A stretch of 64,000 nucleotides of DNA, taken from Bryum argenteum (Eukaryota; Streptophyta; Bryopsida; Bryales; Bryaceae). The position numbers and the translations under genes are program-made. The notes beneath the pieces were generated by a model, which saw nothing but the letters and a program-made list of their open reading frames with translations, ran no database searches and was not told where the DNA came from. Of this stretch, positions 1-19,499 are shown piece by piece. The stretch covers positions 5,996,727-6,060,726 of the forward strand of contig CM073327.1 of NCBI GenBank assembly GCA_037043015.1. The letters are read 5' to 3'. Position 1 is the stretch's first letter. The number at the start of each line of letters is the position of its first letter.

Positions 1-768
1 TAACATGTTGGTTAACTTCATTGTTCACTTATTTACTTGTCTACATTATACTTCATATAATTTTTATATATGAGTTCTGAAATATTGTGTGGCATTTTAT
101 TTGTTGATACACATAACATAAATGAAAAAAATTTGTTGTGAAATACTACACACAATAATATTAGAATGGTCAAAGACTTGCTGACAGGTTTGGCGACCTT
201 CTCATTTGCAAGCCATTCGAGCCACCACGACTTTGGCTAATCGATAGGCTATTTGAGCCATTGTGAATAGGTCGGCTAGCCATTTGAGATGTTAGAGGCC
301 TGCCAATAGTGATATACTCGGCGTTAGGTTGGCCAATTGGTGAGCCATGAGATACTTGTTGATAGGTTGGCAAGTTGGGGAGCCATTCAAGCCATTTGTT
401 TTCAGATGAAGTGTCATCTTTACTAGTACATAGGATAAAACTATATAGTCTTATCCACGTTCCAATCACTTTGAACAACAAAAATATAAACCAACTCATA
501 TCTTAATGATACTTTTTAATGATTAACATTGATGATAAATGTTCCTTATAAATGCTTTTAGAATGTAATCCACAATGTTGGAATTAGATACTTATTTTGG
601 ACTAATATTGAAGATTAAATTAGATATTTATCTTGGAATAAGGGGAGTATTCAAAACTATTATATAATTTTTTTTGTACAAACCCTAATGTTATGCAAAA
701 AGAAGTAAGATTCTTTATACTAAACGGGTATTTAACTAATTCTGGACAATTTGACAGTCCAGAAATCA
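1..768. other. AT-rich non-coding stretch with degenerate short repeats
   Basis: No gene is recognised. Between about 190 and 405 a loose motif related to GAGCCATTTGAGCC recurs several times in imperfect tandem, which creates a 109-codon minus-strand open frame without family features. The rest is AT-rich. The first palindrome-like site of the region appears just after this stretch, so this may be the left flank of the composite element. Confidence 0.4.
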
Positions 769-970
769 ATCGGCTTCCATCCGACACACCTCGAAGGAGC
801 AAAACAAGGCAAGGTAGAGAATGAGAATGATTGACATTATTAGCAAGTCGGAGAAATTATAGATGAATACGCTCTTAGAGTTAGGAAACAAATCCGTTTC
901 ATTAAAAGAATAAGCGAATATTCCAAACGAAGCTCGTCCCACTAGCATGTGGTATCGGCGCGCAGCCGAC
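769..970. repeat. Left-most palindrome copies (769-784 degenerate, 953-970)
   Basis: The site at 953-970 reads TATCGGCGCGCAGCCGAC, and a degenerate relative lies at 769-784. Both share the half-site TCGG/CCGA layout of the 19-bp palindrome family that fills the window to 19.5 kb and that I do not see farther right. They may mark the left edge of the composite element. Confidence 0.5.
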
Positions 971-999
971 TGCACTAACTTCGTATCAATAAATATTAT

Positions 1000-2458
1000 A
1001 ACACCCTATACAATATACAAAGAACACTAGGTATCGAAGGCATGTAAGTTTAACATAGGTGAATCTGCGGTGGTGTCGGCTCGCATGATAATAAGTAGCA
1101 ACGCGACTCCATCATCGACTTCCTCCTTTCTCGCGCTCCATATTCAACAATCCAGGATATTAATCCCGGCAAATCTCGATTTGAAGACCGACAATGACAA
1201 GTCGACGAGTCGCGAGTCTTGACCACTCATCGCAGTTGTCTTCTGCCGACCGGCCGATCGCTCAAGTGTCGACTCAATGATAGGCATGCGGACTAAGTGA
1301 AACCTAGTAACACCGCGATTTGAGAGGAAACACCGCATCTTGAGGGAATGAGCAAAACTTCATAATGAAGTTGACCGGGTCTATTAGAAAAGACTCATAT
1401 ATTGACTAATGATTCGAACCGGTATAAGGAGTAGATGAACGGAAGAATATCTCGTAGCTACATTGGGAATAGTAGTACTTGAAGACGTCAAATCACCTCG
1501 AAAAAGGATAAGGCATGTAGCGCGCAAAGATCCGCGCCAACCTTAATGCCAGGTGGAGAAACATCAACGGGAGAAGTTTGGTCGGGCTCGCACACACCTC
1601 ACTTTAACGACGCTTGCAATAGAGAGTCTTCAAGAGCTTGTAATACCACGGAAAATTCATAGGACGATCACAAAATTCTCTACCATAAACAAAGGATAGC
1701 CTGTCGATGACGCGCCTAAGGTAGAATGTAAGATAGAAGAGGCTTCAAGTCACGACGGCGCATCGTACACCGTGAGACCAACATGGAAGCGCTCCAACAA
1801 CATGGCAAATAACTTCGTTACACCTAGCCGCTGATTACATTACGGTGAGCGTTCCAACGATCCGTCGGAATATTAGGGGCGATGTAGCATAGCAATCCGG
1901 ATATGGATAGAATGATACATTTCTTGGGGGTAGAAGTATCGGCAATGTCATAATCCAAACGGCAATCGCGCCCCAACAATACAAGCCTCGAAATAAGTCG
2001 AACGATGATTAGAAACGAAATAGACAAAGAATAGAATGATAAGGGCGGATCGGTCGGCGTAAATGACAAGAAGACAAAACCAAAATAAACATAGAAGTGT
2101 CGGGCCGGCAAATGACATAAGAAGAAAACAAACAAGAGAGTCCATGAGTAAAGACGACAAGGAGACAATGACAAGAAGAAGCCATGGATCCTAAAACAAA
2201 AAGGAAAACAAAAGAAAACACCATACATAAGAACCGATACCAAGAAAGGGAATATGATAGAAAACTCTCCACGTTAAGATTAAGAGAGTCTTCACAAATT
2301 AAACATCCTCGAAATATACAGTTAAGAAAAAGTCTCGAGTGGAACCCTAGAAAATTTACAGAACTAGAAGAAAATCTAAATGATCTACAAATTCTAGCTC
2401 GCTAGATCATCGAATTGGATGACTGAAAAATCTATACACCCATGCTAAGGACATGTAT
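1000..2458. other. Unassigned stretch, 3'-flanking to gene A
   Basis: This stretch has moderate GC content, unlike the AT-rich DNA on its left. The minus-strand open frames near 1824-2272 are Phe/Leu/Ser-rich and look like the complement of an A-rich purine tract. I recognise no domain. By position it would be downstream of the FCP1-like end of gene A and may be 3' sequence of the same element. Confidence 0.3.
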
Positions 2459-2480
2459 CTATGTAGGGTAACAAGAGGTG

Positions 2481-2499
2481 TATCGGCCGGCAGCCGACA
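2481..2499. repeat. 19-bp palindrome just downstream of gene A's FCP1-like end
   Basis: The site reads TATCGGCCGGCAGCCGACA, a member of the palindrome family. It lies about 70 bp beyond the stop codon of the FCP1-like open frame, on the opposite side of the gypsy insertion from most other copies. This ties the two sides of the retrotransposon to one older element. Confidence 0.75.
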
Positions 2500-2570
2500 A
2501 CTGGAGCATCTTGAACTTGCTCCACCATCTTGAACAACTCGAACGCCAAGCTCGAGAAGTAATCAATCCA

Positions 2571-3270
2571 TGATCACTCCCTCCTACCAAAATCAAGCGT
2601 CTTGTACTTCTCGTACAACGGATTTCCGGGAGCATACGGCGCTTCCCTAACCTTGCGTGCTCCAAACAGAAACTCGTGAATATTTTTCTGAGAATTATAG
2701 AGCTCGAATAACAAAGGCTGCAGAATCCTCTGAAAGTAAGGCTGTCCACTCACATTTTGCTCCGAGGTCAAAATAGAGGTGTGAGGGTGGAACGCATTGT
2801 AAGGATTGTTCAAAACGTTCTTGTAGGGGGAGTCGTCGATGAGAAGCATATTATCGGGATTAGCACCACGAGCCCTGAGGTCAGGACTCATTTCCGGAGA
2901 TCTTCAATCGACTTAATAAAGAAGGGCCGGTCATGATTATCGCGGCTCCCGGTAGCAACTCGGAAGAATATCCCCGATCAAACTCCAAGATGTTCCTAGG
3001 AGCCTTGAAAACGGAGCGAATAAATTCGATCCTCGGAGTAAGGTTCTTCGCAGCCGATGGGACAGAAAACAAATTTGCTACTGCATCGACGCAAAATCAA
3101 GATTGAAGGAAGGCCGCGCTCGCCCTCGCCTCTTGCTTCGCCACCGGGGACGATCCCCACCAAAAATGATCCTATTTAGAACGTAGTGAATGAGAGTGCC
3201 ATTCACGTCGAATGTAATAAAATATTTACAACGGACTCACCCGCCTCCGATTCTGAGAGGAGTCGATATG
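2571..3270 (-). pseudogene. FCP1/NIF-type HAD phosphatase-like 3' part of gene A (decayed)
   Basis: Read on the minus strand from 3270, this continues gene A beyond the gypsy insertion. HAD motif I is visible as DVNGT at 3209-3195, with Asn in place of the second Asp, as I recall from some plant FCP1-like proteins. About 100 residues later come DNHDRPFFIKSIEDL and then ANPDNMLLIDDSPYKN at about 2850-2820, the characteristic acidic C-terminal motif of FCP1/NIF domains. An intact 105-codon frame (2891-2574) holds the last motif and the end of the protein. Upstream the frame is broken: a TGA about 13 codons after the gypsy junction, a TAG near 3080, stops near 3000 and a shift near 2890. Family members dephosphorylate Ser/Thr residues such as the RNA polymerase II tail; activity here is unlikely. 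The match is to conserved motifs, read by eye. Confidence 0.65.
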
Positions 3271-3275
3271 GAGGT
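3271..3275. repeat. Left 5-bp target-site duplication (GAGGT) of the Ty3/gypsy element
   Basis: GAGGT immediately precedes the TGTCA start of the 5' LTR and recurs at 9837-9841 directly after the 3' LTR. Five bases is the usual duplication for Ty3/gypsy elements. Confidence 0.8.
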
Positions 3276-3388
3276 TGTCATGGACATGCCATACTGGGTA
3301 TTATCCACACCCCATGAGTTTACCGTGATCGACCTTACTACTGGAGATTTCCTAGATTCCGTATATTTTGCAAGTTGAAGTTTTCCTC

Positions 3389-3560
3389 GGAAGGTTAGAA
3401 CCTTCCACTAGTTTCCAAAGCTTCCTCAAGCTTCCGTATAGCTCTAGTAGTTTCCGGAAGCTTCCACAAGCTTCCGGATAGTTCTAGTAGTTTCGGAAGG
3501 TTCTCTAAGCTTCCTGGTTCCATAAGGATCCAATTGTTTCCGGAAGGTTCCATAAACTTC
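3389..3560 (+). promoter_or_regulatory. Heat-shock-element-like array in the 5' LTR
   Basis: Alternating TTC and GAA triplets spaced by two bases recur, for example TTCCGGAAGCTTCC near 3452 and TTCCGGAAGGTTCC near 3538. This is the nTTCnnGAAnnTTCn arrangement bound by heat-shock factors. The best 3' LTR site is damaged here by a 2-bp deletion. Confidence 0.55.
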
Positions 3561-3663
3561 CGGAAGGTTCCGCTGACCTTCCTAGATTCCTAAGTTCCCA
3601 CGAGTCTCCGGAAGGTTCCATAGGAGCTTCTAGGACCTTACTTGGAAGTTTCTTCTAGCCTAG

Positions 3664-3671
3664 TATATATA
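3664..3671 (+). promoter_or_regulatory. TATA box of the 5' LTR
   Basis: TATATATA lies about 100 bp downstream of the TTC/GAA array and is conserved in both LTRs (9627-9634 in the other). A start of transcription some 25-35 bp downstream, in ...TTCACTCTCTTCAACACC, would be typical. Confidence 0.65.
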
Positions 3672-4194
3672 GAGAGTTGAAGGTCGTTGTTCTTCACTCT
3701 CTTCAACACCAACTTGTACCTACTTTTCCAAATCATCAATACTACTGCTTCTTACTACTGAGTGTCGTTTCAGTCTTGTGTGAGGAATCCCCTCACTTCT
3801 AGTTTATCTTGGTCTCCTTTTGAGTCTCCTCAATCTTGTCTTTGATCTCGCTTGAGTTCTTTGTCCCAAATGCAGTTTGAAGAGAGTGATCGACTACATT
3901 CTCGTCCGAGAGAGATTCTACGTTTAGTATTTCCTATGAAGTTTCGTTTTAGAATTTTCATGAAAGTTTTTGACGGACTTGAACCGATTTCCGTTATCAC
4001 CAAGTCCGCTTGTTCTAGAAGACGTTTTCTCTTTTGATCAAAGATCGAACTTAGAGACGCCCTCATCCGGCTGCAGGTGAAGAATTCTATTTGACCTCTC
4101 TTGAGATCACCTCTTCCGCCATTATCCCTGAGCATTTAACGGAAATCTTTGTTACTTCATCTACTTGTGAATCTTCAAGCTTTTGTATTCCAAG

Positions 4195-5100
4195 ATGGGC
4201 GAGTTATCAAATCTCGAGATGCACGATATGATCGCCACGATACGACAACTACAAAGCAGGAGAATGCCAACATACGGCACGCCATGGAACAACACCAAGC
4301 GGCTCTCACTCAAGTCCATGCATGCGGCGCCTTGCCGCAAAACCAAGTACCACATCTACAAGACCTAAAGAGCCTCGAGTGAGCTTGCTGCATAAGTTTG
4401 ATGGCGATCGCACTGCTTCGAGATTTTGTAATCAAATTCGACTTGTCTTTCGTCTCCAACCTCAAAGATACTCAACGGAAGAAATACAAGTCGGGTTCAT
4501 CGGGACCTTGCTTCACCGGAACAGCGTTGTCGTGGTTCTCATCGCTCTTGGAGAAAAACTCTCCAATCTTGGCAAGCCGCGACCGGCCAAGAATCGAACC
4601 GCGAACGTTCGGAGAAAGAGACGAAAGACCGGTAGCGATCGCAAAACTCCGTTCCTACAACAACGTTCGCGCCCACCTTCAAGATACGTTGCAGAAGTTT
4701 CAACAAATTTCGCGACTTGATTGGACGATCTGTACTCATCATCACCACGCGATGGGACTTCGTGACGATATCAAGACCTTGTTCTTTGAACTCTGCTGCC
4801 CAACTACGCTATCGGAGGCTATTACTCAAGAATCGATCGCGACAACCGATTGTTCGAAAGAAATGGCAAGAGCGGCGATTGCTCTTTGGATCGTGTCGAG
4901 CGGACTACGCGCCCCATCTCGCCGTACACCTCCCCACACTTCAACGATGGAACCTGATGCAAATCGACACTTCAAAAGTTAAGAAGTTGTCCGAAAAAGA
5001 GAAAGAACGACGTCGCAGAGAACACCTATCTTGTATTGTGGAGAAAAGGACCACGGTTGGAGAATCGCCTGCAAAACTTCGTGAGGTCAAAACCGCATAA
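4195..5100 (+). pseudogene. gag-like region of the Ty3/gypsy element (frameshifted)
   Basis: A start codon at 4195 opens a Gln- and Met-rich N-terminus. Two overlapping frames (4322-4720 and 4398-4982) together carry capsid-like segments, including ALSWFSSLLE. Near 5028-5075 a zinc-knuckle remnant reads YCGEKDHGWRIACK; the first Cys of the expected CCHC knuckle is not present. At least two frame changes interrupt the region, so no full-length Gag can be made as written. Confidence 0.7.
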
Positions 5101-5379
5101 GTTTCGAGGCACTTCGAGCGCTTCCGGCATAACCACGAGGAGTTCATGTCGGAAAACGACAACGGCCACCACAAGAGGGACCGTCGGCGGTCGACAAATG
5201 TTGCCACGTCATCGCGCCCTATCTTATCTTCCTCAACTCGTTGTTTTAATATCCCGCTTATAATAGATTTTTATCCGCATAGTATAAAAGTCAAAGCTTT
5301 CTAGATTCTCGAGCATCTGCTTGTTTTATTGATAGGGACTTTGTCAAACGTCATAACCTCGCCTATAGTTCCTAAAAAT

Positions 5380-5580
5380 ACCCTCAGAGCAAAGAGGTTA
5401 TTGACGGTAGACCGCTTGGTATCGGGAGATGTTACCCACGAAACTAAACCTTTGAATATTATCCTAGACGGTCACCAAAGATTGTTGTTTTCAATATCAT
5501 TAGTTCTCCTCGAATCCTCTTGTCCTAGGTCTTTTCTTGGTTAAAAATGGTCAATCCGGATATAGACTGAAAAAACGTAA
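5380..5580 (+). pseudogene. Retropepsin-like remnant of the Ty3/gypsy element
   Basis: The segment DGHQRLLFSISL followed by a leucine-rich stretch matches the C-terminal half of plant Ty3/gypsy aspartic proteases. The catalytic Asp-Ser/Thr-Gly part is not recognisable in frame, so the domain is broken. It lies between the zinc-knuckle remnant and the reverse transcriptase, as expected. Confidence 0.5.
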
Positions 5581-5691
5581 GCTAACGTGACGCTTTAGCT
5601 CCCTATATGCCTTCAAATAATCAAGTCTTGCTTCTTACCAAGTCACAAAGATCCGAGGTCAAAATTCGATGGTGGTCGGTGCAGAGCCTTT

Positions 5692-6574
5692 ATGAGGGCT
5701 GCCAAAGACGGGAGTATGTTTGCAATTTATGCAATTCCGTCATCACAACCTGTTCAAAAACTAGCTAAACTACCAGCACAATATGAAGAGTTTTCGGACG
5801 TGTTCGAGAAGAAGAATGCTGACACACTTCCTCAACACCGACCCTATGATTGTGGCATCGAACTTCAAGAAGGAGCGCAACCGCCATTTGGTCCGATCTA
5901 CAGCCTTTCGCAGAACGAGCTTGCTGCATTACGAGAATACCTTGATGAAAATCTTGCGAAGAATTTCATCCGACACTCCAAATCACCTGCCGGAGCTCCT
6001 ATTTTATTCGTCAAGAAGAAGGACGGTTTCCTTCGGATGTGCGTGGACTATCGCGGCCTGAACAAGGTTACAATCAAGAATCGGTATCCATTGCCACTTA
6101 TCTCGGACTCCTTGACCAACTTTCAAAGAAAGATCTACACCAAGATCGATCTTCGTGGAGCGTCTAACCTAAGTACGTATCAAAGAAGGTGACGAGTGGA
6201 AGACGCATTCGAACGAGGTATGGACATTTCGAATACAATGTTATGCCTTTTGGTCTTACCAACGCTCACCGCCATCTTCCAAAGACTTAATGAACGACGT
6301 GTTCGAGAGTTCCCGGACGACTTTGTTGTTTGCTACCCTCGACGACATATTGGTGTTCTCCAAGAATGAAGAAGATCACACCAACCATGTCCGATTGGTA
6401 TTGAAGAAGCTACTGCATGCCGAATTATACGCCAAGTTGGAAAAGTGCGTCTTTCACCAACCTCAAGTCGAATTCCTAGGCTACATCATTTCGGAAGAGG
6501 GTCTATCCATGAACCCACGTAAGATTGAAATAATCGTTGATTGGCGGAAACCAACTACCGTTCGAGACGTCTAA
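5692..6574 (+). pseudogene. Reverse transcriptase of the Ty3/gypsy element (frameshifted)
   Basis: The first open part (5692-6192) carries [14 protein letters not shown] and [20 protein letters not shown], the fingers and palm signature of Ty3/gypsy reverse transcriptases. After a break the frame resumes at 6290 with the active-site loop at 6335-6346 reading TLDD, followed by ILVFS. The usual aromatic first residue of the YxDD-type loop is replaced, while the two Asp residues remain. The break around 6193-6290 removes continuity, so the enzyme is inactive as written. Confidence 0.88.
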
Positions 6575-6599
6575 TGTTTCCTTGGTTTCTGCAAACTTT

Positions 6600-7080
6600 T
6601 ATCGAATCTTTATTCGAAATTACTCTAAGATTGCTTCTCCGTTGACCCGATTGACTTGCAAGGACAAGCTCGAGTGGACTACGAAGCCGACGAAGCTTTC
6701 GAGGTTTTGAAGAAGGCGTTCTGACGGCCGCCTATACTTTCACGCATCCCGATTTCCGTAAGCGCTCTTCCTAAAAACGGATGCTTCGATTTTGCCTTGA
6801 GCGGTCCTTTCACAATCCGGACGACGACGGACGCCCATCCCGTCGCGTTCCACTCGCGAAAATTTACCGCCGCCGAGATCAATTACGAGATTCACGACAA
6901 GGAGCTTTTTTAGCTATCGTCGACTTTTCCAAGAATGGCGTCGCTTCCTCAAGGTGCTCGATCCCGTCACAGCTTCATACCGATCACAAGAACCTTGAGT
7001 ATTTCATGTCTCCGCAAGTCTTTGAATCGTCGATGCTCGTTGGAGTATATCGTTGTCGCGATTCAACTTTGTAATCACGC
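6600..7080 (+). pseudogene. RNase H remnant of the Ty3/gypsy element
   Basis: Short matches to the tether and RNase H domain are scattered over several frames; the clearest is [10 protein letters not shown] followed by an [10 protein letters not shown] segment around 6830-6905. Stops and shifts separate the pieces. It follows directly after the reverse transcriptase remnant. Confidence 0.65.
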
Positions 7081-7275
7081 ATCGCCCGCTCTCAACAAAT
7101 TCGCTCCGATGCACTTTCTAGGCGAACATACCTTGCGCCAAAGAAGGCGATGCAAAGATAATGACCAACAGAGACTACCTCATCAAGCCTCGAGCAACTT
7201 CAAACCAAGACCACGCACAAGACAAATGATGCATCTTTTCTCGAAGATATCCGAGTAAGTTTACAATCTGATCCT

Positions 7276-8200
7276 TTGGCCTTGAAAGTCAAGAGTAATC
7301 CTAGCGTCTCCAATGTTGAAGAATCTCCATGTCGGGACTCTCAAGTCTCAGATTCAGAGGTTATAGATTCGGATTCCCCGAATCAACCTGCTTCCAGTTC
7401 ACGGGCTTCCAGGTCACGTGAAACTCCCCAAGATGATGCAGATCCAAGATTCCAGTTTCGAGATGGGCTACTATATTATCAAGGACTACTCTATGTCCCT
7501 GAAGGCCCATGCCGACTTCGAGTGCTCCAGTCTCGACACGACTTTCCATCGGCAGGACACCTTGGTTACAACAAGACCATGGAACTGTTATCCAGAGACT
7601 TTTGGTGGTCTCAAATGTGGAAAACCGTGAAAGACTATGTCACAACGTGTGACATTTGTTCTAGATCCAAGATCCCTCGTCATCGGCCGTACGGGTTGCT
7701 TCAGCCGTTGCCAATTCCAGAAACCCCATGGACATCCATATCCATGGACTTTATTGTGGACCTTCCAATGTCCAATACCTTTGATTCCATCTTCGTTGTT
7801 GTGGACCGGTCGACCAAGATGGCTCACTTCATTCCGCCACAAGACAATTCACGAGAGAAGAAATAAAGAAGACTTTTTGTAGACAATGTCTACGACACTC
7901 CACGGCCCCCCAACAACATCATTTCCGATCGTGAACGCACCACATCGAAATTCTCGCGCCTTTGTTCAAGATTCTGGCGTGGAGATCGTTTATCTTCAAA
8001 GATACCATCCTCGGGACCGACGGACAAACCGAAATACAATCAAGTGTTGGAAGAAAAAAACTTGCGCGCACCATCAACTACCATCAAGACAATTGGGTGG
8101 AGTTGTTGCCGCTCGCCGAGTTTGCCTACAACAACACGTTGCGGGGTCTACTCAACACTTTTCTTTGCAAACTACGGTCATCATCCCGCGATTGATCAAT
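7276..8200 (+). pseudogene. Integrase of the Ty3/gypsy element (N-terminal half open)
   Basis: The open frame 7276-7866 contains a His-His-Cys-Cys zinc module (SAGHLGYNKTMELL to TCDICSRSK) and the first catalytic Asp in SMDFIVDLP. The second Asp region (NNIISDRE) follows after a frame change near 7870, and the later core is in another frame (7886-8209). The Ser/Glu/Asp-rich stretch before the zinc module is a linker. Breaks fall in the second half of the catalytic core. Confidence 0.85.
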
Positions 8201-8250
8201 TCAATCTAAACATTTCTCGGTAATCCACCGCCACGGATCTTGCTACTCGA

Positions 8251-8787
8251 TTGTCTGATATCCAGAAGCAGATGAAGCAGAGCCTCCTCGAAGCCCAAGA
8301 GCACCAGAAGACAAATGCTGACAGGTCTCGTAAGGAACATCCAGACATTTCTATTGGTGATAAGGTATGGCTACTGCGTCGAAATTTGAGAACTCGCCGG
8401 CCATCTGATAAACTCGACTACCGTCGCCTTGGACCATTCACAGTGGTCAAACAAATCAACAAGGTGGCTTACCGGTTGGAGTTACCGGCCACTATGAAGA
8501 TTCATCCAGTTTTCCATGTATCTCTCCTTGAACTGTACAAGGAATCTATGTTACCGGGCAGGATTCAAGAACCTCCTCCACCGATCGAGATGAAAGGCGA
8601 TGAAGAATTTGAAGTCTCGGAGGTTCTAGACTCTCGCATCCACCATCGACAACTCGAATATCTTGTGCATTGGCAGGGCTACGACGTCAGCGAAAGAACC
8701 TGGGAGCCTGCCTCAAACCTCAAGAACTCTCCTGAGTTAATTCAAGAGTTTCATCGCCGATACCCTCGAAAACCTAAAAGCGTTTAG
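8251..8787 (+). CDS. Integrase C-terminal GPY/F module plus chromodomain (intact segment)
   Basis: This 178-codon frame starts with a basic segment and GDKVWLLRRNL, continues through LDYRRLGPFTVVKQI (GPY/F module) and IHPVFHVSLLE, and ends with a chromodomain: EEFEVSEVLDSR, LEYLVHWQGY and RTWEPASNL. Phe, Trp and Tyr stand at the three aromatic-cage positions of HP1-type chromodomains, so methyl-lysine binding is plausible. In this element class the chromodomain steers integration toward marked chromatin. The segment belongs to the pol polyprotein and is not expected to have its own promoter. Confidence 0.85.
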   Translation: MSDIQKQMKQSLLEAQEHQKTNADRSRKEHPDISIGDKVWLLRRNLRTRRPSDKLDYRRLGPFTVVKQINKVAYRLELPATMKIHPVFHVSLLELYKESMLPGRIQEPPPPIEMKGDEEFEVSEVLDSRIHHRQLEYLVHWQGYDVSERTWEPASNLKNSPELIQEFHRRYPRKPKSV

Positions 8788-9219
8788 GTTCAATGCATCT
8801 CGCACGCCACCGCACCAAGTCTGTAAGTTTTTCTCTTGTGCGGTGCGGATCGAGACTTTGAACCAAAACGATGGGGGGTATCGACGAGGCGACGCGCGCG
8901 CTTGTCTAGCTTCCGATTTCAGGGCAGCCATCGAACTCACGTCGCCTGAAAATTTGGTAAGGCCGCGAGCGCCACCTCGCCGATGTCTCAAGTCGCCAAC
9001 CACATTGTTTTATACCACCCGTCCGTTCTTTGCGTTCTCTACCACGTATCCGTAAACAACTCACTTTCTTTCGCCGCAGCCGCCGACATTCGATTTTTAC
9101 GGTATTCGTATCCCGTATATTTACTCCTTTTGTCTAGTCCACGTGAAACCCACGTGAACATTCTCGTTTTATGTTTTATTATTCGTTTGTGTGGGAACTC
9201 GTGGAACTCGTTCCTTGCA

Positions 9220-9230
9220 GGGGGGGGTGA
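9220..9230 (+). other. Polypurine tract before the 3' LTR
   Basis: A run of eight G followed by TGA lies directly against the TGTCACGG start of the 3' LTR, the position and composition of a plus-strand primer of LTR retrotransposons. Confidence 0.75.
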
Positions 9231-9342
9231 TGTCACGGACATGCCATACTGGGTATTATCCACACCCCCATGAGTTTACCGTGATCGCCTTTACTACTGG
9301 AGATTTCCTAGATTCCGTATATTTTGCAAGTTGAAGTTTTCC

Positions 9343-9500
9343 GGAAGGTTCTAGAACCTTCCACTAGTTTCCGAAAGCTTCCTCAAGCTTCCGTATAGCT
9401 CTAGTAGTTTCCGGAAGCTTCCACAAGCTTCCGGATAGTTCTAGTAGTTTCCGGAAGGTTCTCTAAGCTTCCGGAAGGTTCCATAAGGATCCAATTGTTT
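9343..9500 (+). promoter_or_regulatory. Near-perfect heat-shock-element array in the 3' LTR
   Basis: At 9343-9362 the sequence GGAAGGTTCTAGAACCTTCC gives four alternating units GAA-TTC-GAA-TTC at exact two-base spacing. Further three-unit sites (TTCCGGAAGCTTCC, TTCCGGAAGGTTC) follow at about 9409 and 9447 and beyond 9460. This is the consensus for heat-shock factor trimers. Confidence 0.6.
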
Positions 9501-9626
9501 CCGGAAGGTTCCATAAACTTCCGGAAGGTTCCGCTTGACCTTCCTAGATTCCGGAAGTTCCCACGAGTCTCCGGGAAGGTTCCATAGAGCTTCTAGGACC
9601 TTACTTGGAAGTTTCTTCTAGCCTAG

Positions 9627-9634
9627 TATATATA
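9627..9634 (+). promoter_or_regulatory. TATA box of the 3' LTR
   Basis: TATATATA at the same LTR position as 3664-3671. If active it would drive transcription rightward into the antisense strand of gene A. Confidence 0.6.
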
Positions 9635-9836
9635 GAGAGTTGAAGGTCGTTGTTCTTCACTCTCTTCAACACCAGATTGTACCTACTTTTCCAAATCAAT
9701 ACACTACTACTCTCTCTTACTGAGTGTCGTTTCAGTCTTGTGTGAGAATCCCTCACTTCTAGTTTATCTTGGTCTCCTTTTGAGTCTCCCTCAATCTTGT
9801 CTTTGATCTCGCTTTGGAGTTCTTTGTCCGCAATGA

Positions 9837-9841
9837 GAGGT
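9837..9841. repeat. Right target-site duplication (GAGGT)
   Basis: It matches 3271-3275. When the element and one copy are removed, the codons of gene A join without a frame change (...GGC ACC TC|C ATA TCG...), which independently supports this assignment. Confidence 0.8.
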
Positions 9842-10057
9842 GCCCTGCCGTGATCCATGAGACGCGGAGTCCACGAACTCCTCGTTCTCAGATTCACCGA
9901 CTGCAAGAGATTAGGGCATTTGTACAATAAGCAAAAAGCGCAAAGAATTACACAACAAAGTGAGACACGAGCGATACAGAGGTGGCAGTGGATACAAATA
10001 ACATCAAACACCATGACAGAAGGGAGAATAATAGTGCAAAGAAAGGACATGATGACT

Positions 10058-10170
10058 TGTCGGCTGGCAGCCGATAAGACGAAAAACACTGTTGAGAGAA
10101 ATCGACATCGGAGACAAGGGATACAGGCGGAAACGTGAAACGATAGTAGGGAGTCGGCTGGCAGCCGATA
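10058..10170. repeat. Two palindrome copies in intron 5 of gene A
   Basis: Copies at 10058-10076 (TGTCGGCTGGCAGCCGATA) and 10152-10170 lie inside the 398-bp intron between exons 5 and 6 of gene A. Confidence 0.85.
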
Positions 10171-10596
10171 CAGTCTTACAGGGGAAGGAACTGGCCGAGC
10201 ACGTTGCAACCAGGAGATTCTAATAACAAATCCATTCTAGAACCTAAAATGCTTATGCAATGGTGAGAAGAGACTATATACAAGAAACGCCGTCGTCTAT
10301 GACAAACCTTCATGTAATTGTTGTTGCTGCGGGGAAACATGATCCGCCGCAGGTGGAGACAGAGCCTCGTTCGGGGCGTTGATGGCGAACTCATTGTCGT
10401 CTACGAGGGCCGCCTCGGTTGGGGCGCTCATGTTGTACACGTCGTCCTCCTGATGAGCCTCCTCATTTGTTGCGCTGATGTCGTTTGCGTCGTCCTCCAG
10501 GAGGGCCGCCAAATCAACAGCAACTTCCCTTCGTGTATAGAACGCCTGCAATGCCGATTGAGCCCTCTGAACTTCCCTACATGAAGGAGCGGGAGA

Positions 10597-10805
10597 TGTC
10601 GGCTGCCGGCCGATAAGGGCAAGAATGGATTGCGAAGGACTCTGAGGGGCACGAGACAGAGGAACCTGCTCAACGACGATCACCTCTTCCTCCGGGGCGT
10701 TTTGCAAATCAACCTGCATCGTGGTCGCAGCACATGCAGGCAAATCTGTTGTAGTATCAGGAGGCGGTGCTGACACGGTGACAATGTGTCGGCCGGCAGC
10801 CGATA
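10597..10805. repeat. Two palindrome copies within coding exon 5 of gene A
   Basis: Copies at 10597-10615 and 10787-10805 are read through in frame, encoding IGRQPT and SAAGRH in two different frames of the palindrome. They sit in the low-complexity acidic linker, where an insertion of six or so residues would be tolerated. Confidence 0.8.
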
Positions 10806-11198
10806 CAGGAGAAGGGATAAGTGTGGCAGTCGATTCAGGTGGAGCCGTCGGCGTGGTTGCAGGTGTGAGTGACAAAGGAGTAAGATCAATCTCATCTAGC
10901 ACTTCCTGAATCCTAACACCAGAGGCGGGACGTCGTTCAGGGTTGGCAGGCTCGCGAGACGAGACTGAGGGACCAGCGTCGGTCTCCATATCCTCGGAAG
11001 ACGACGGTGGAAGCTCGACCCTATCCAGGTTTAGTCCCTTTGCACGTTGGACTGCCAACTTGACATGGTCCTGACTTCTGACGAACTCGATCACGGAACT
11101 CCCATTTCTCTGCAAGACCATGAACAAGAGTAAGAGACAGAAGGGAACCAAACAAGTACTGGTAAACGAATAAGGTGAAATAGACAAATATTAGAAGG

Positions 11199-11217
11199 TG
11201 TCGGCTGGCAGCCGATA
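11199..11217. repeat. Palindrome copy in intron 4 of gene A
   Basis: TGTCGGCTGGCAGCCGATA lies inside the intron 11242-11110, whose donor GTAAGG and acceptor TCTTGCAG are clear. Confidence 0.85.
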
Positions 11218-12611
11218 CAAAGCAAAAGAGAGGATGCCTTACCAATCCAAGCTCGGTGACGTTTCCGCCACCCCAGACGTTGATGACGGTGACCTTCTTC
11301 GCGGTGAGAGTTGGCTTCAGCAACTTCTCGAGCGTTTCATGGTCAACACCGCAGAACCCCCCGTTCCAATCGACAGCACTTTCAAGAGATGCCTGGAACC
11401 AATCTACTGGCTTTGCGATTCCAGTATACTTCCTGAAAGTAGTCCAACGATCATCATCCCCGCGTACCTTTGGGTATGTCATGTTGAGCGTAACAAGCGG
11501 GGAAGATTCCGTCACCGTCTTCTTGAACCCTCCCCGAAGACACGGCTTGTAATAGACCGTCTGGACATACCACTCCGTATCTTCGGTTGTCCAGACAGCA
11601 CAAAGGAGATCCCGTTGCTTCGCGCTCGTGATGAACAACATCGGGATTGGATAGAGAGGCCGAGTCGGAGTGTCGTCGTCAGCGTCCATCGTGAGGTCCT
11701 GATCCGTGAGTGGGACCTTCGACCGTTCCGCGAGCGCACGAAGCTCCGATCTATTGGTTGGAACCGAGACTCCGCCATGACTGTACCCGAAGTAGACAAT
11801 TAGGAGTGGGTCCTTTGCAATGCCGGCATGGCCAACAGCTGCGTCGATCTCGTGCAAGACGTCTGCAACTGTGTCCGCGAATTTGCACTCGAAATGCGCC
11901 TTCTCGGAATCGACCTCCTCCGTCGTAACCTCGACCTGAGAATACGCTTGCAGAATGGTGCTGAAAATGGGCGGCGCAACACCATTCTTCGACTTGTCAG
12001 TCGTCAGATTCATTGCGCTGGCGCATCCATTAAGCCATTCATTTCCATCCGTAAATTTCTTCAGGTCTGTCCAGATGTTGCGAACGACACTCGGGGTGAA
12101 ATGGTGCTCCTTCGCCAACTTGTCCCAGTCTGAATCTAGGTATGGCGACCAGTTCGCATCCTTGCAGGGAAGCGGATGCCTATTGAGCTGATACATAAGC
12201 TCGTTCATAATCACCCGGTCGAGCTTCTTGTCGCGGCACCAATCTGGCAATGTGAGTCTGTCCTTCGTTCTGCTGTTGGCCTTGATGCAGACACGATTCG
12301 CGATCACCTCCGCTGCAAGCTCTTCAAGGTCGCAGTCACGGAGACCGAGTGTGGGGACAAGGTCAGTCTTTGTTATGTTCGAGATTGGCGTCCGCTTGAT
12401 CAGTCCCGGCTCTTTGCCGTCGTCGCCAATGAGTTCACCTGCTTCCCAGGCATTGAAGACCTCAATCCAAGTATTCCAGGCCTTGTCACCGACAAACACT
12501 AAGGGGAGCTTTGTGGACACCTTCTCGTTCACGAAGTGCGCCATGACTTGCGCCTTCGCAGCCTGAAGAACAACCATAAAGAATTAGTTGTATGAAGGCA
12601 AGAAGAAGAGT

Positions 12612-12668
12612 TGTCGGCTGGCAGCCGATAGCTCTAGATTAAAGAAATGTGTCGGCTGCCGGCCGATA
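12612..12668. repeat. Two palindrome copies in intron 3 of gene A
   Basis: Copies at 12612-12630 and 12650-12668 occupy much of the 128-bp intron 12691-12563. The second has GG in place of AG in one half-site. Confidence 0.85.
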
Positions 12669-13242
12669 GATAAAGCAGAGGGTAACGATACCTCGAAGGT
12701 CGGCGACGGCTTCCCGCCTCCCTTGTGTGGCTCGGGGCACCCGAGACGCTTCCATGCCGCCCTCCCGAGTTCCGCGCACGATCGGAAGTTCTCTTTGGCG
12801 ACCTTCTCTGCGATATTGAGATTGAGGGCGTTCGACACCCTCACAAGATCGATGGGGTCCCTTGAGAACACTGGGATGATCTCGAATTCAAGAAGCTCCT
12901 TCTTGGCATCCGATCCCTCGGGGTACTCGTCCGCCAACTCGCGGCAGGCTGTCACTGTATGCTGACCACCGATGATATACCAGTGGACGGTAGGGTGTTG
13001 CCACCAGGGGATTTTCGGGGCGGTGTCGGGGTCTGTGTCGTTTAGCTTCCACATATCCAACTCCCCTGGCATGGAATCCATCACAGCCATCATCCCGGTA
13101 TCGGTTTCAAGTGGTTCCCGTTTAAGCGGGATACCATGGATCTCAGGATTCTTCCGGATCGCCCCATAGCCCTTGTAGATGGCCTTCACCTGCGAAGAAC
13201 ATAACAAATGAACAATCATGAATCAGAGATGATCAGAGGATG

Positions 13243-13261
13243 TATCGGCTGCCAGCCGATA
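13243..13261. repeat. Palindrome copy in intron 2 of gene A
   Basis: TATCGGCTGCCAGCCGATA, the consensus form, lies inside the intron 13305-13190. Confidence 0.85.
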
Positions 13262-14233
13262 CACAGAGCAGAACCTCATAAGAGCAGGTGAGAAAATCAA
13301 AATACCTGGCCCAGACGATCTTTCGCGATGCGTCTGTACTTGAGCTCGTCCGGAGCGATGTGTAGCTTCTCGCTAGGAATAACCCCCCGACAGCCTCCGC
13401 TTCTTGTAGGGGAACAGGTGACCAAGACCAGTCTCTAATGCCTTGTAGATTGCGTCGATCTCGACGTCCTTCATCTTCGAGGTCATTTGGTTACCCTTAG
13501 ACAGGGCCTCGTCTAAGGAATACTCGATGGCATCCTTAGTCGATTTCGCCCGTCTCTTGGGCTTGCTGGGATCTTGTGACCCCTGGACGTTTTCATCGCC
13601 GTCATCGCCAAGATCGACCATCTCTGCTGCAGGTCGCTTCTTTTTTGAAGGAGTTGGCTTCCTCTTCGACGACGACGGAGCCATAGCCGCTGCTGCATCG
13701 ATGGCGTTGTTAATAGCCAACCTTGCGTAATCGATAGCGGACCACGCGTCCATGAACTCCTCGATGGTAGCAGGCGCAGCTCCATTGAAGGTCATGCCCT
13801 CCTTATTCGCCGGCTCACCGCAAACCGCCTCAGTGCATTGTCTCCACGGCATTGATACGGCGATGTAGTCGGTCGGGGCAGAGGGATCTCTCAGGGCCGG
13901 TAGGCTTATGAGAATGTCGACGTGCTCCACATTCTCCAAAATTTCGAAAGACATCACCGTACCTAGGGATCATATTACCCAGAGAGTGAGAGCAAGCAAT
14001 CTCGATTCGCTGGCTGGGGAGGACTCTCCAGCATAGTCCCCACTGCTGGATGACTGGATTACCCGCCCATACTGCACGCGGGACGATGTCTCCATGCTTG
14101 ACATCCGTGTGTGCAAGTTTCACACGAAGCAATCTAGCTAGGGCTGGTGGTTTTCTGCAGAATAAACACATGTGAGGGTATATTAGTAAACGCCAGTAAA
14201 CGTACATTACTGTATATCAGTAAACGAATATCT

Positions 14234-14397
14234 TATCGGCTGCCAGCCGATAACAACTATGGTATCGGCTGCCAGCCGATAACAACCATGGTATCGGCTG
14301 CCAGCCGATAACAACCATGGTATCGGCTGCCAGCCGATAACAACCATGGTATCGGCTGCCAGCCGATAACAACCATGGTATCGGCTGCCAGCCGATA
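14234..14397. repeat. Array of six 19-bp palindromes at exact 29-bp period
   Basis: TATCGGCTGCCAGCCGATA starts at 14234, 14263, 14292, 14321, 14350 and 14379. The ten bases between copies are nearly identical (ACAACCATGG), so this is a tandem repeat with a 29-bp unit. It lies in the 661-bp intron 1 of gene A. The two halves TATCGGCTG and CAGCCGATA are perfect inverted repeats around one base. The layout is that of a multi-site protein-binding array; nothing in the sequence proves binding. Confidence 0.95.
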
Positions 14398-14474
14398 GCG
14401 ACAATGCACAAATATTCAGCGTTGACATGCAATAGTTGCGATGATAGTCTAATGACCTACAGCAAATAGCATGC

Positions 14475-14633
14475 TATCGGCTGCCAGCCGACACAATAGA
14501 AGCTATCGGCTGCCAGCCGATACACAAGGCAGTGTAAGGCGCTAAGGCAGAGGAGCTACTAACGACCCGCGAGTACACTAAGCATTACAAGAGAACATGC
14601 TACAGCAAATGGGCTATCGGCTGTCAGCTGATA
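14475..14633. repeat. Three further palindromes in intron 1 of gene A
   Basis: Copies at 14475-14493, 14504-14522 (again 29 bp apart) and 14615-14633, the last degraded in both halves. A still weaker relative follows at about 14673-14692. Confidence 0.85.
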
Positions 14634-15059
14634 CACTAAGCACAACGTTCTAAGTTAATACATCACTCGAGCTATCGGTTGGCGGTAACCGACAACATAA
14701 GCTATCGGGCAAAATGACACACAAGGCAAGAGAACCTGACGAAAAGATGCAAATGAAACGACGCCAATCGAAACGGCGCATACTCAAACGTCACAGAATA
14801 GCTAAATCGGCTTACCTCTTCGACGACGCCATCGGAGATGTATCGGCTAGCGAGTGCTCGATGTCGGCTGGTGCGTAACGAGTGCTCCACTCTCCCGCAA
14901 AGTCGCCGGCCGGTGCGTGCGTAAGGTGTGTCATTCTTTGCCTCCGCTCCCCCAAGTAAAGTCGTGGACTGACCTTAAAAATATCGGCCATTTAAAAACC
15001 CTAAACCCTAAAACTGAATACTATCGGCTGCCAGCACAGAAACGGCTAAGGCAAGAAAG

Positions 15060-15260
15060 CATGCAAGCAGAGAGGAGAGGAGAGAAGACAGCAAGAAAGC
15101 ATCAAAGCAGAGAGGAGGGAAGACAGCAAGAAAGGAGAGATGAGAGAGCAAGTAGCAAATGAGAGGAGAGAGCAAGTGCAAATGAGAGAGGAGAGAGCAC
15201 AAGTGAGAGGAGAGCGCAAAAGTGAGAGAGGAGAGCAAATTACAAATGAGAGCAAATGAG
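15060..15260. repeat. Purine-rich GAGAG low-complexity tract
   Basis: About 200 bp almost exclusively of A and G on the plus strand, built from GAGAGGAGAG, AGCAAG and CAAATGAGAG units. It creates Ser/Leu-rich open frames on the minus strand that are not genes. GA tracts near plant promoters can bind GAGA-type factors; that role is speculative here. Confidence 0.8.
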
Positions 15261-15956
15261 GGAGGGTGAACGGTTTACCCCCTCCGCAATTTTCGCAATG
15301 ATGGCTATCGGCTGCCCGCCGATTTGCGCCTTGCCCGCTTTTCAATCGGCTTGCTCGCTCTCGCATCCGCTTGCCCGCCCGCCAAAAATTTCTGAAGCTC
15401 GCGCCGCCAAAACGTTAATTTAAATTTTTTCATCCGTTTCATCATGCTTTTCATCCTGCCTATCAATTAGCCCTCCAAAAATTCAAAATCATTTGAAATT
15501 TGAGTTTGAAATCTTCTTGATTTGAGCGCCACCCACGCTCTCGTCATTTCGAGATGGCTATCCATTCCCAATCAAGCTTCGACATTTTATTTCATTTCTC
15601 GCGTGTTTCCTGACGCTCTGAGCGATTTGCTTTGCTGTTTTTGTAGTTTTCTCTGGCCAGAAATAGTCAAGAATTGCGTCATTGTGTTCCCCGTGTTAGT
15701 GCGCTTCTTTCTATACAAAGAGCGGTAGATAGCAGCCTTTTATTACTTCAATTTGCACGATTTAATAGCTAGAGGCTCAATACCCTGGTATTAGACGCCA
15801 GCCGACATAGTGAATGTCGCCAGCCGACATAGTGAATGTCGCCAGCCGATACGATTCCTTAGGACTCAGTCGGATCTCCTTATATCGGCTGCCAGCCGAT
15901 ATAGAACTATCACGTGTCCGTCATTGTCCTGACTCCCGGGAGCTTCAGATCAAGGT

Positions 15957-16158
15957 GTTGGCCGGCAGCCGATACCTCAGGTGGTTGTGTCTACTGCAGC
16001 TGTCTCATTATTTCCTACGTCTCCTCAACCTTTTAGATTCGCAATTGTGTCGGCCGGCAGCCGATACCTCAGGTGGTTGTGTCTACTGCAGCTGTCTCAT
16101 TATTTCCTACGTCTCCTCAACCTTTTAGATTCGCAATTATGTCGGCCGGCAACCGATA
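15957..16158. repeat. 91/92-bp tandem duplication bounded by palindromes
   Basis: The unit starting with TGTTGGCCGGCAGCCGATA at 15957 is repeated nearly exactly from 16048, and a third palindrome begins at 16140. The duplicated unit is therefore one palindrome plus about 72 bp of spacer (ACCTCAGGTGGTTGTGTC...). Unequal exchange or slippage between palindromes is a simple explanation. Confidence 0.9.
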
Positions 16159-16167
16159 GATCAATGA

Positions 16168-18470
16168 AGAGATCAAGCTCCATCATGCTTGAAACCGAAC
16201 CGATTGACAGCTTTCTCAAGAACGGCGGTTCCGGGAGATGGCGTATAGAAAAGGGCGCAATTGTCGCTCTCATCATTCGCAAAATTTTATTATCTTGAAA
16301 TCGCTTCCATCAACCGAATTATCTCGCGAAAGCCATTCCTTTTAGACGTCCATGATATTGACGTCGCTCCAAATATTGAGATGATCATTCCGTTTCCCAC
16401 TCCTAGCGTTAAGTTTCTTAGTCAGTGTCCTAGTAACAACATTACATGGGACGTGAATGACGTGAGACCCTTCGTTGATAACCTCGATGAATCATCCGAG
16501 CCTATCGGCTGCCAGCCGACACCGGGCGCATTAGATGAGAAGCCCATAAATCAGTTCCTCACTCTCTCTGTTAACATGGAGGTTGCTCTATTGCATGTTG
16601 ACGGGACCGATCATCACTGTGTCGAAGTGGGCGTCATCGTTGAGTACTCGCCTAAGGGCACCTGGGAGGGTTTTCGCGTCCCGCATAGCTTCTTTGCAGT
16701 TGTCAAGCTCACTACTGTGTATAAGGACTTTGTTGGTCTTGTAGCTTACTGTGAGAATCCTTCTCTCACTCTACTTGGAGAGTGCCTTGGGTACAAAATC
16801 CTTTGGAGCGGTTACAAACTTCGTCCCCTCGACGCTACGCCGCTGAATGGCAACTCTATCGGCCGGCAGCCGATACACCCCACGCTGAGGAGTGTCAAGG
16901 TTGAATCAACCAGCGATACATCCCAGAATGCAAAGGATTACAAAAGCCACTGCTGGCCTTGGACAGATTCCGGTCTCTGTTACCGACATGTTGACACACG
17001 ACCACGGTGATGGTGCGTACGCACACTACTCCACTGCGCTCTGGCCGGGGGATTCCAACTTCACCATCTCTTCTTTGTGTGCGTGTCAGATCGCGAGCGC
17101 TGAGAAAGCCACCGCACGAGAATCCCGGGAGCTCTTTCCCACACCTCCACGCAATGCCTTCTTCCAAGCTTTGCTACATGGAAAGTCTAGGTGTTTCGCA
17201 TCGATCCCACCCGCCACCGGGACTCACCCGGTCCTTCACAACCTCGGACGTCCGCTCGTTCCGCTTCGCGTAAGCTATTCCCGCAACTTGATAATTCCGC
17301 GAAGGACAATAAGAACAGATTTGTGATGGCCTTCGCTCTTTCTTTGTGACCGCTCGGCGCATTTTTTTAAGGAGGTCATTTGTTGGGTTCCTCATTGTTG
17401 GCCACACTCACGAGGATATTGATGCCCATTTCGATTACCTTTCCAAGCTCATCAAGCGGAAGAACACGTGACGTTCTAGGCGATCTCATGAAGGCCTTTA
17501 TGGACTCGCAGAAGACGGTCGCCTTCATTCCTGAATTCGTTCAAGATGTTGCGGATTTCAAATCCTACGTCAAGGACTTTCATCACGACGGTGTCAACAA
17601 AATTGTTGGACTTGGTGATATGCATCTTTTCAAGTTAAGGTCGAAGAGGACGGTGACGATCGCGGGCCGGCTGTCATGAGGTATAAGCGGAAATCCACTA
17701 ATTCTTCATGGCTCCCACCCGGTCCCCCCGTCAAGATGTGGACTTCTGACGAGCAATGAAGACCTAGAATTCCATCTGGCGACCGACGTCCTGTTCCATT
17801 TAAGCCGTTATGGGGCGTCACGGAGGTGAACCCCAACAAGTTGAACTTTGTGAAGGAGCAAGCTCGTGCCTCGGAGTGCAATGACAAACAGGGTTTCATC
17901 AAGCACGGTATATCTAAGTTCATTGAGTTCTAGAAGTCCGGTATGGCGCGTAACAGACGTTACTGCGAGGAGATGGCTGGACCTGTTGGTTACTGGGAGC
18001 GAATCAACCGAGAGATCAATTCACCATTACCGTCTACCCCTGACGTTCTTGTCGAAGGATTTTGGCCTATTTAAGACTGGACTCATGATCATTCTCAAGC
18101 CTCCCAAGATTCTGGATCTAGCTCCTCTTTCTCACAGGACATTACGCCTGAGGATGATGCAGATGCTTATCCTTACTGTGGTTCTGCTAAAGACCGACCG
18201 AGGCTTAGCTTTAATCCATTCCGTGATGTTCTTCTTGGTGACTTTGTGTTATGCCGCCCCAGCGACGACCATTTCCTTCCCTTCCAGGTGGGCGTGTCCT
18301 TGAGTGTTGATCGACGCCTTGGTCCTACCTATGGCAATTTCAAGATCGAATGGTGGACCCCTATGCGAGCTAAGAAGGAAGTAAAATCGATCATCGCTAG
18401 GAGAGTCTTTGGACTCGCTTGGCGGCATAAGGAGCCTTGTCTTCCTCAGTTGTGAATGTCAACATTGTTC
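16168..18470 (+). pseudogene. Gene B: DUF7869-type protein of the palindrome-rich locus (decayed)
   Basis: The gene opens near 16168 (MKRSSSIMLETEPIDSF) and continues, with frame changes, through 16261-17010. The conserved part lies at about 16985-17660: a HDHGDGAYAHYS...WPGDSN segment, QLDNSAKDNKNRFVMAF at about 17284-17336, and FLIVGHTHEDIDAHFDYLS at about 17381-17437. These are hallmarks of the DUF7869 family, common in transposon-like multigene families of plants, animals and protists; my view that it is an RNase-H-like transposase is inference. A C-terminal piece near 18240-18455 (GDFVLCRPSDDHFLPFQ, then NFKIEWW) completes it. Stops near 17347, 17469 and 17757 and several shifts break the frame. 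Two palindromes (16503, 16857) are read through in frame as IGCQPT and IGRQPI. It is divergent from gene A. Confidence 0.7.
16503..16875. repeat. Two palindromes within gene B coding sequence
   Basis: Copies at 16503-16521 and 16857-16875 lie in the open frame of gene B and keep it open. Confidence 0.85.
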
Positions 18471-18606
18471 GTTCTCTCATAGGATGCCGTCACATGCAAA
18501 GAAAGGTCCACCACTACACATATCATTCCCGAAAGCGTGCAGCTGCAATGCAATGTCTAACCTTGAGGCCACTGGAGTCGTTTCGAAGTCGCTCATCATA
18601 CATTTG

Positions 18607-19491
18607 TATCGGCTTCCGGCCGACACGCTTCATGTGAGCCTCCCTCGCATCCTCTCACTCTATGACGGACCTGCTCTGCACTTGTCGGCTGCCGGCCGAT
18701 ATTGATCTCATATGCTTTCCCACCAGCAACTCCGACCTCCTATCGGCTGCCGGCCGACACCATGCTCTACCCGCTGGTTCTTATCCGACTCACCTCACTA
18801 CTGCGATTAGTGTCTATAATCCATGCATACCCGTTGTGTTTTTGCTTCGGCATACTCATCATTATCAATATGCTACAGCTCATTCCTTTACTCTTGTTTT
18901 CGGTCTTTCCTATCCATGACAGTTGATTGGAGTATATTCATCGTTTTCACGATTGTAGCGTTCATTGGTTGCTTTGTTGTACTTCCTCCTTCTCTATAGT
19001 TTACTGTTTCTCGGCTGGCGGCCGATAAGTGACTTAGCTACCTATGGCTTTCCGATACACTATATCCTACTCTCTCTTTAATGTAGCGATCATTGTATCG
19101 TACACTTTTAATGTAATCCGCTTTTCTCGGCTGGCGGCCGATATTGGACTTTTCTGTTCATGGCATTGTATCCATGTATCCCTCTGAATCATATTAAATT
19201 GATCTGTATATGAATGAGTGTGCAACCTTTTGGATTCCTTTTCTAAGTTGAGTTCTGAAATTGTTACTACTACTTCGTCATATTCCTTGGGCTTCTATCG
19301 GCGGCCGTCCGATACAGAATTTCAGCTAATGTGGGTTGAGGACGTGAACTGTAGTCTACGGTCTAAGGTTCGGGGTTTAGGGTCTAGGGTTCAGGGTCTT
19401 TAGGGTTTAGGGTTTAGGGTTTAGGGTTTAGGGTTTGGGGTTTAGGGTTCAGGGTTTAGCGGTTTTAGTTGTATTGGCCTTCGGCCGATAT
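18607..19491. repeat. Palindrome cluster downstream of gene B
   Basis: Copies at 18607-18625, 18683-18701, 18741-18759, about 19009-19027, 19125-19142, 19296-19314 and 19474-19491. They grow less perfect to the right; the last reads TTGGCCTTCGGCCGATA. I see no member of the family farther right, so the composite locus probably ends here. Confidence 0.8.
19370..19458. repeat. Interstitial telomere-like repeat (TTTAGGG)n
   Basis: Five perfect TTTAGGG units run from 19399 to 19433, flanked by variants (TTTGGGG, TTCAGGG, TCTAGGG). This is the common plant telomere unit. The tract sits at the right margin of the palindrome-rich region, just before the last palindrome. Confidence 0.9.
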
Positions 19492-19499
19492 AATTTAGA

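Follow-up and report, generated by a model that had tools for sequence, protein, structure and literature searches.

A palindrome with the motif TRTCGGCYGNCRGCCGAYA recurs over the first 19.7 kb of a 64,000-nucleotide stretch of the Bryum argenteum genome (GenBank assembly GCA_037043015.1, contig CM073327.1, positions 5,996,727 to 6,060,726; hereafter the window), on both sides of a nested gypsy retrotransposon and within two divergent genes, called here A and B. The sites belong to a DNA transposon with terminal inverted repeats (TIRs), one copy of a dispersed family, F1, which has tens of copies. From sequence comparisons we consider it probable that the palindromes are self-recognition sites of this transposon family, bound by one of its own proteins and most probably serving against silencing, in self-regulation or in some mix of the two. 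Binding by an element-encoded protein is the part that we regard as very likely; anti-silencing as the role of the sites, argued by analogy, is a tentative proposal with a serious chance of being right.

Palindromes spread with genes A and B

Scanning the window with up to three mismatches gave 66 matches, corresponding to 34 distinct positions when both strands are counted once and spanning 768-19,314, against a mean of 0.02 matches in 100 dinucleotide shuffles of the window. At the same threshold the remaining 44 kb, beyond 19.7 kb, contained none, and a scan with a degenerate motif gave 36 sites, all of them in 1-19,700. An earlier note on this DNA had described such a locus-wide palindrome, absent from the other 44 kb, and this is borne out. 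It had also taken the repeat to be confined to a single locus, which is ruled out at the scale of the genome: the exact core TCGGCTGNCAGCCGA occurs at 666 sites (0 for a reversed control pattern), and all 60 gene A and gene B loci that were fetched carry the motif, with 3-14 sites each. These loci are the best 30 matches to each gene; two are the window itself and several come from the same copy.

Genome searches returned 150 scored matches for gene B (query: window 16,498-17,010) and 151 for a gene A exon (12,692-13,177), fragments and distant relatives included. In a recount based on 84 typed gene B matches, 48 of the 60 best gene A matches had a divergent one within 6 kb (median 3.7 kb), and 12 had none. 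Taking the palindrome as the starting point, 45 of the first 50 listed of the 666 sites (C1:0.9-7.0 Mb) lie within 10 kb of a gene A or gene B match, compared with 4.5% of random positions; a TIR match lies 1-4 kb away from three of the other five, which leaves two without an explanation. The earlier suggestion that the sites spread with the locus and co-occur with genes A and B therefore stands. A uniform distribution independent of these genes is not what the first 50 listed sites display.

The host element is a TIR transposon

Alignment of the window with a copy on C8 revealed the sharp ends of the host element, at 723 and 19,685, with inverted repeats of 30 bp that are 90% paired (left, 723..752, + strand, AACGGGTATTTAACTAATT...; right, 19656..19685, - strand; TIR pair at C7:5997449 and C7:6016411). 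Immediately outside lies the target-site duplication ACTA (719..722 and 19686..19689). In the genome the TIR sequence AACGGRTATTTAACTAATT is matched exactly 62 times in forward and 57 times in reverse orientation, a reversed control 0 times. A 4-bp target duplication was present in 10 of 10 fetched copies, picked for having both TIRs exact, and also in the window copy (11/11), where it was read by eye, as were those of the C8 and C4 copies. TIRs found in many copies and a target duplication of fixed length are the features of a TIR DNA transposon, whose termini here are AACGG..CCGTT. Among 30 gene A loci the closest pairs are 97-98% identical over about 3.4 kb, which suggests that F1 moved fairly recently.

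The window copy itself (723..19685) is degraded. The nested Ty3/gypsy retrotransposon, with reverse-transcriptase- and integrase-like open reading frames (named by eye), is absent from the C8 copy, and its approximate limits (3276..9828) are those of the gap between aligned blocks. Gene B has an internal deletion of 1.79 kb relative to C8, and the frames of both genes are broken.

Sites persist between diverged copies

The C8 and C10b copies, which represent different F1 subfamilies, were compared in segments whose limits were set by hand. Their gene A exons are 50-70% identical and gene B 51-82%; in noncoding DNA, blastn (pieces >60 bp) aligned only a palindrome array, telomere-like repeats and some 60 bp next to the right end. 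Both copies have sites in all introns that were examined, in the A-B spacer, in the last gene A exon and, two of them, in the first exon of gene B, and none in three conserved gene A exons or in the gene B exon encoding the domain DUF7869. Site density was 7.5-18 per kb in gene A introns, 7.2 and 11.5 per kb in the A-B spacer, a figure that includes the first intron of gene A, and 6.8 and 8.2 per kb from gene B to the right end. The two coding sites of gene B occupy homologous codons in the two subfamilies (113/116 and 231/234), with an unchanged reading frame, within an exon that is 51% identical between them. The persistence of F1 sites where most of the surrounding noncoding DNA has diverged beyond alignment argues for self-recognition, as does the fact that the palindrome travels with a TIR element that has 4-bp target duplications and two divergent genes.

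Conservation was also estimated within 30-locus alignments. The major-allele frequency of the site exceeded that of its flank in 15 of 17 site rows, several differences being below 0.02; it was clearest for three intron sites (0.984, 0.977 and 0.970 vs 0.885, 0.907 and 0.907 in the flanks). Among 527 F1 site matches from the 60 loci, which are related by descent and so do not form an independent count, both halves rarely deviate together (position pair 2/18, G-C 5; pair 8/12, C-G 3), as would follow from a need to keep one half-site unaltered. CpG retention was weakly higher within sites than outside (no significance test): 0.870 vs 0.835 in exon and 0.686 in noncoding DNA for gene A loci, and 0.932 vs 0.864 and 0.847 for gene B loci. 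The 29-bp tandem array described below varies in size between copies.

Related families carry other palindromes on a common frame

Distant relatives of gene A adjoin different palindromes. At L071, next to a relative of 36% identity, the F2 palindrome GCATCGGKCGATCGMCCGATGC gave 20 matches with up to five mismatches (0 in 20 shuffles), and no F1 site was found there; variants of it occur at L072 and L094. At L073 (33% identity) the F3 palindrome TTATCCCCGGNCCGGGGATAA forms an array of about 62-bp steps. A further stretch, at C4:24814600, was fetched in the expectation, not recorded in advance, of yet another palindrome: upstream of a gene A relative 49% identical to that of L073, it contains in 600 bases four perfect sites of the F4 palindrome, TTATCGTCGNNNCGACGATAA. 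Exact search cores of F2, F3 and F4 occur 60, 693 and 127 times in the genome (reversed controls, 0).

The four motifs do not mix. In a cross-scan with up to three mismatches, F1 DNA (66 loci, some overlapping, 255,585 bp) gave 707 F1 matches and 0 for F2, F3 or F4, and the DNA of F2 (3 loci), F3 (1 locus) and F4 (1 locus, 600 bp) gave 21, 10 and 4 matches to its own motif, respectively, and 0 to the others. F3 and F4 sites are also found near gene A: 43 of the first 50 listed F3 sites are within 15 kb of one of five close gene A matches (2.9% for random positions; 5 have none within 20 kb), and, among the matches listed, 33 of the first 50 F4 sites are within 10 kb of one of 18 F4-like gene A matches (2.3% for random positions). 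Tandem arrays have periods of 29 bp in F1, 72 and about 30 bp in F2 and about 62 bp in F3. All four motifs share an ATC...GAT frame and have family-specific inner arms; the starts of the two triplets are separated by 15 bp in F2 and by 14 bp in the other three families. A single ancestral site, bound by a homologous protein whose specificity later changed, would account for this frame. Different palindromes built on it suggest that the DNA of each family is labelled for recognition by a protein of its own. That distant relatives of gene A adjoin different palindromes on the same frame is a further argument for self-recognition in F1.

Genes of the element and positions of the sites

Gene A (10297..14832, - strand) has exons at about 14816-14832, 13307-14154, 12691-13190, 11243-12562 and 10297-11109, with splice sites placed by eye; its second exon shows frame breaks near 13386 and 13948 compared with the C8 copy. 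The region 12692..13177 (- strand) encodes a motif, IIxGQHxV, that is invariant in 20 aligned F1-F3 sequences and that we take, by eye and from its appearance only, to resemble the ParB/DGQHR superfamily. Comparison with Pfam, NCBIfam, PHROGs, PADLOC and PDB sequences gave no significant family match: in PHROGs, a ParB-like entry was reached at E=0.41 by one of five proteins and an entry of unknown function at 0.014-0.03 by two of five. An hhalign comparison with SopB of the F plasmid found nothing (probability 0.2), and a single-sequence fold of a gene A exon was uninformative (predicted local distance difference test score, pLDDT, 39.8). With no significant profile or protein match, gene A was not assigned to the ParB family; the P1 and F-plasmid par regions and the SopB plasmid search served solely for this comparison. 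Viral contigs gave pattern matches for gene A and DUF7869, and no relative.

Gene B (16164..18580, + strand) is broken: about 1.79 kb of the C8 sequence is missing internally at 16917/16921, and frame breaks follow. Its second half matches DUF7869 (E=6.9e-41), and we infer that it is the putative transposase gene. No significant PDB match was obtained (best E=0.47), and no paper on DUF7869 was found in the literature searched, which did not cover subscription journals or Repbase.

In the motif scan, sites left of the gypsy element are at 768, 953 and 2481 (768..2499), and those on its right start at 10058. They comprise 10058 and 10152 downstream of gene A (10058..10170), 10597 and 10787 in its last coding exon (10597..10805), 11199..11217 in the intron at about 11110-11242, 12612 and 12650 in that at about 12563-12690 (12612..12668, conserved above their flanks) and 13243..13261 in that at about 13191-13306. 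The first intron (about 14155-14815, splice signals by eye), probably counted as spacer in the earlier note, holds nine sites (14234..14633), six of them in a 29-bp tandem array. Six follow in the A-B spacer (15022, 15306, 15883, 15956, 16048 and 16140; 15022..16158), the last ending 5 bp ahead of the gene B ATG at 16164. Two lie in the first coding exon of gene B (16503 and 16857; 16503..16875), and 18607, 18683, 18741, 19009, 19125, 19296 and a weak site, 19472, extend from gene B to the right end (18607..19490). The previous description of palindromes on both sides of the gypsy element, in every gene A intron (all four recognised), in coding exons of both genes and in the spacer was accurate.

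Telomere-like TTTAGGG repeats are present inside the element, at 19357-19465 near the right end and at about 15000-15012 in the spacer, and the C8 and C10b copies have a similar array close to their right ends; such repeats might act as a telobox recruiting host factors. A TIR pair 1.3 kb apart at C8:12437191-12438510 is likely a non-autonomous F1 derivative. Palindromes with no gene or TIR detected nearby were seen at C1:3077728, C1:3912095 and C1:3247399-3247840, and might be remnants, derivatives or host sites. Of the 60 best gene A matches, 32 lie on C1 (44.1 of 258.8 Mb), as do more than half, judged by eye, of the 150 that a later search listed; this contig may be a repeat-rich or sex chromosome. 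In the window the element adjoins a plant-type, protein phosphatase 2C-like gene (21034-22335, + strand; named by eye from its translation).

Possible role of the palindromes

We propose that a dimeric protein encoded by the element binds the palindromes along its length, the gene A protein being a more likely candidate than the DUF7869 protein of gene B. In a less certain step, the bound protein would oppose silencing so that the genes of the element stay active, as VANC does for VANDAL transposons. Sites would be gained by tandem duplication, and the motif would diverge along with its protein as families split. Such binding along the element would explain the family specificity of the sites, their placement in introns and spacer, their avoidance of conserved exons and their spread by tandem duplication. 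Several observations speak against this proposal. Gene A has no significant family match, with nothing found against SopB and a poorly predicted fold. In C10b, 3.7 kb of sequence left of the last gene A exon contains no site (the left end of this copy was not located), compared with nine in 3.0 kb in C8. Sites 15022 and 16503 are less conserved than their flanks (2 of the 17 rows), and four further array sites could not be scored. Among the matches listed, 17 of the first 50 F4 sites have no gene A match within 20 kb. Finally, gene A has a DUF7869 match in its neighbourhood in F1 and, at about 10 kb, in the F2 copy on C3, and none is shown for F3 or F4.

The sites might instead be subterminal repeats that the gene B protein binds for transposition, as in CACTA or Ac. 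The DUF7869 domain and the dense sites between gene B and the right end fit this; subterminal repeats, however, are usually near element ends, and here the element has sites along most of its length, with every gene A intron and the first coding exon of gene B among their locations, so that we find this explanation unlikely. We give a similarly low chance to operators through which a repressor or activator would control its own expression, with no anti-silencing role. Their high density in the first intron of gene A and the spacer, and a dyad symmetry of 19-23 bp suited to a dimeric regulator, are what operators would show, but promoter control would not need the further sites that lie in coding exons, in distal introns and close to both ends.

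Explanations without a binding protein fare worse. A neutral minisatellite or hitch-hiking repeat would duplicate without function, and the 29-, 62- and 72-bp tandem arrays do show duplication; yet three isolated intron sites have been retained better than their flanks, two coding sites have kept their codon position and frame in the 51% identical exon, and four families each have a palindrome on one frame, which makes neutrality quite improbable. RNA hairpins in transcripts are the least credible reading, with a very small chance indeed. The inverted repeats do lie in transcribed regions, and in the gene B sense two variable pairs lean towards wobble (10 vs 6 mismatches). Hairpins were rejected on gene A, where in the sense strand mismatches prevail (25 vs 7 wobbles); moreover, the loop would be a single base and sites also occur outside genes.

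Comparison with known systems

VANDALs are Mutator-like, and Mutator-type target duplications are of about 9 bp; the 4 bp found in 11/11 copies do not fit membership, and the DUF7869 protein also sets the present element apart. A family-specific dispersed motif of the VANDAL/VANC type was found in each of F1-F4. Arabidopsis VANC proteins, encoded by the element, bind VANDAL motifs and cause loss of silent marks, the motifs being short, family-specific, different between related families, dense in introns and upstream regions and subject to tandem-repeat gain and loss (PMC5735166, PMC10398659); tandem-repeat arrays are described among VANC targets (PMC5735166). As described there, VANDAL motifs are non-palindromic, of 8-9 bp, in one orientation and mainly noncoding, whereas ours are palindromes of 19-23 bp on a shared frame and lie in coding exons too.

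CACTA/En-Spm, with its TnpA, and Ac/Ds have many short sites for an element-encoded protein, clustered subterminally, whereas here most of the element is covered. Bacterial ParB-parS likewise uses palindromic sites, but gene A gave no significant sequence or profile match. Another DNA transposon group, Lanisha/CMCT, was described by authors who reportedly work on mosses. In that group, target duplications are of 2-5 bp, a range that includes ours, the transposase has C(2)C and H(3-4)H motifs, and termini are CA..TG in most cases (PMC12730594), whereas the present element ends in AACGG..CCGTT and was not assigned to this group.

Implications

VANDAL elements already illustrate the principle; in the literature searched, subscription journals and Repbase apart, we found no description of this element type, of the palindromic code or of the series of four families. 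A broader reading, which we put forward as rather doubtful, is that of an uncharacterised, probably plant, group of DNA transposons whose ParB/DGQHR-like gene A protein would bind TATC-N11-GATA-type palindromes with family-private inner arms, covering the whole element and protecting it from silencing, with at least four mutually exclusive codes in one genome. From one odd repeat came a rule that foretold a further case: the DNA beside another gene A relative yielded a fourth palindrome. If an element protein reads the motif, the VANC strategy would be known from two independent cases, the second in another type of transposon, and four natural protein-site pairs would be available for reading a DNA-recognition code.

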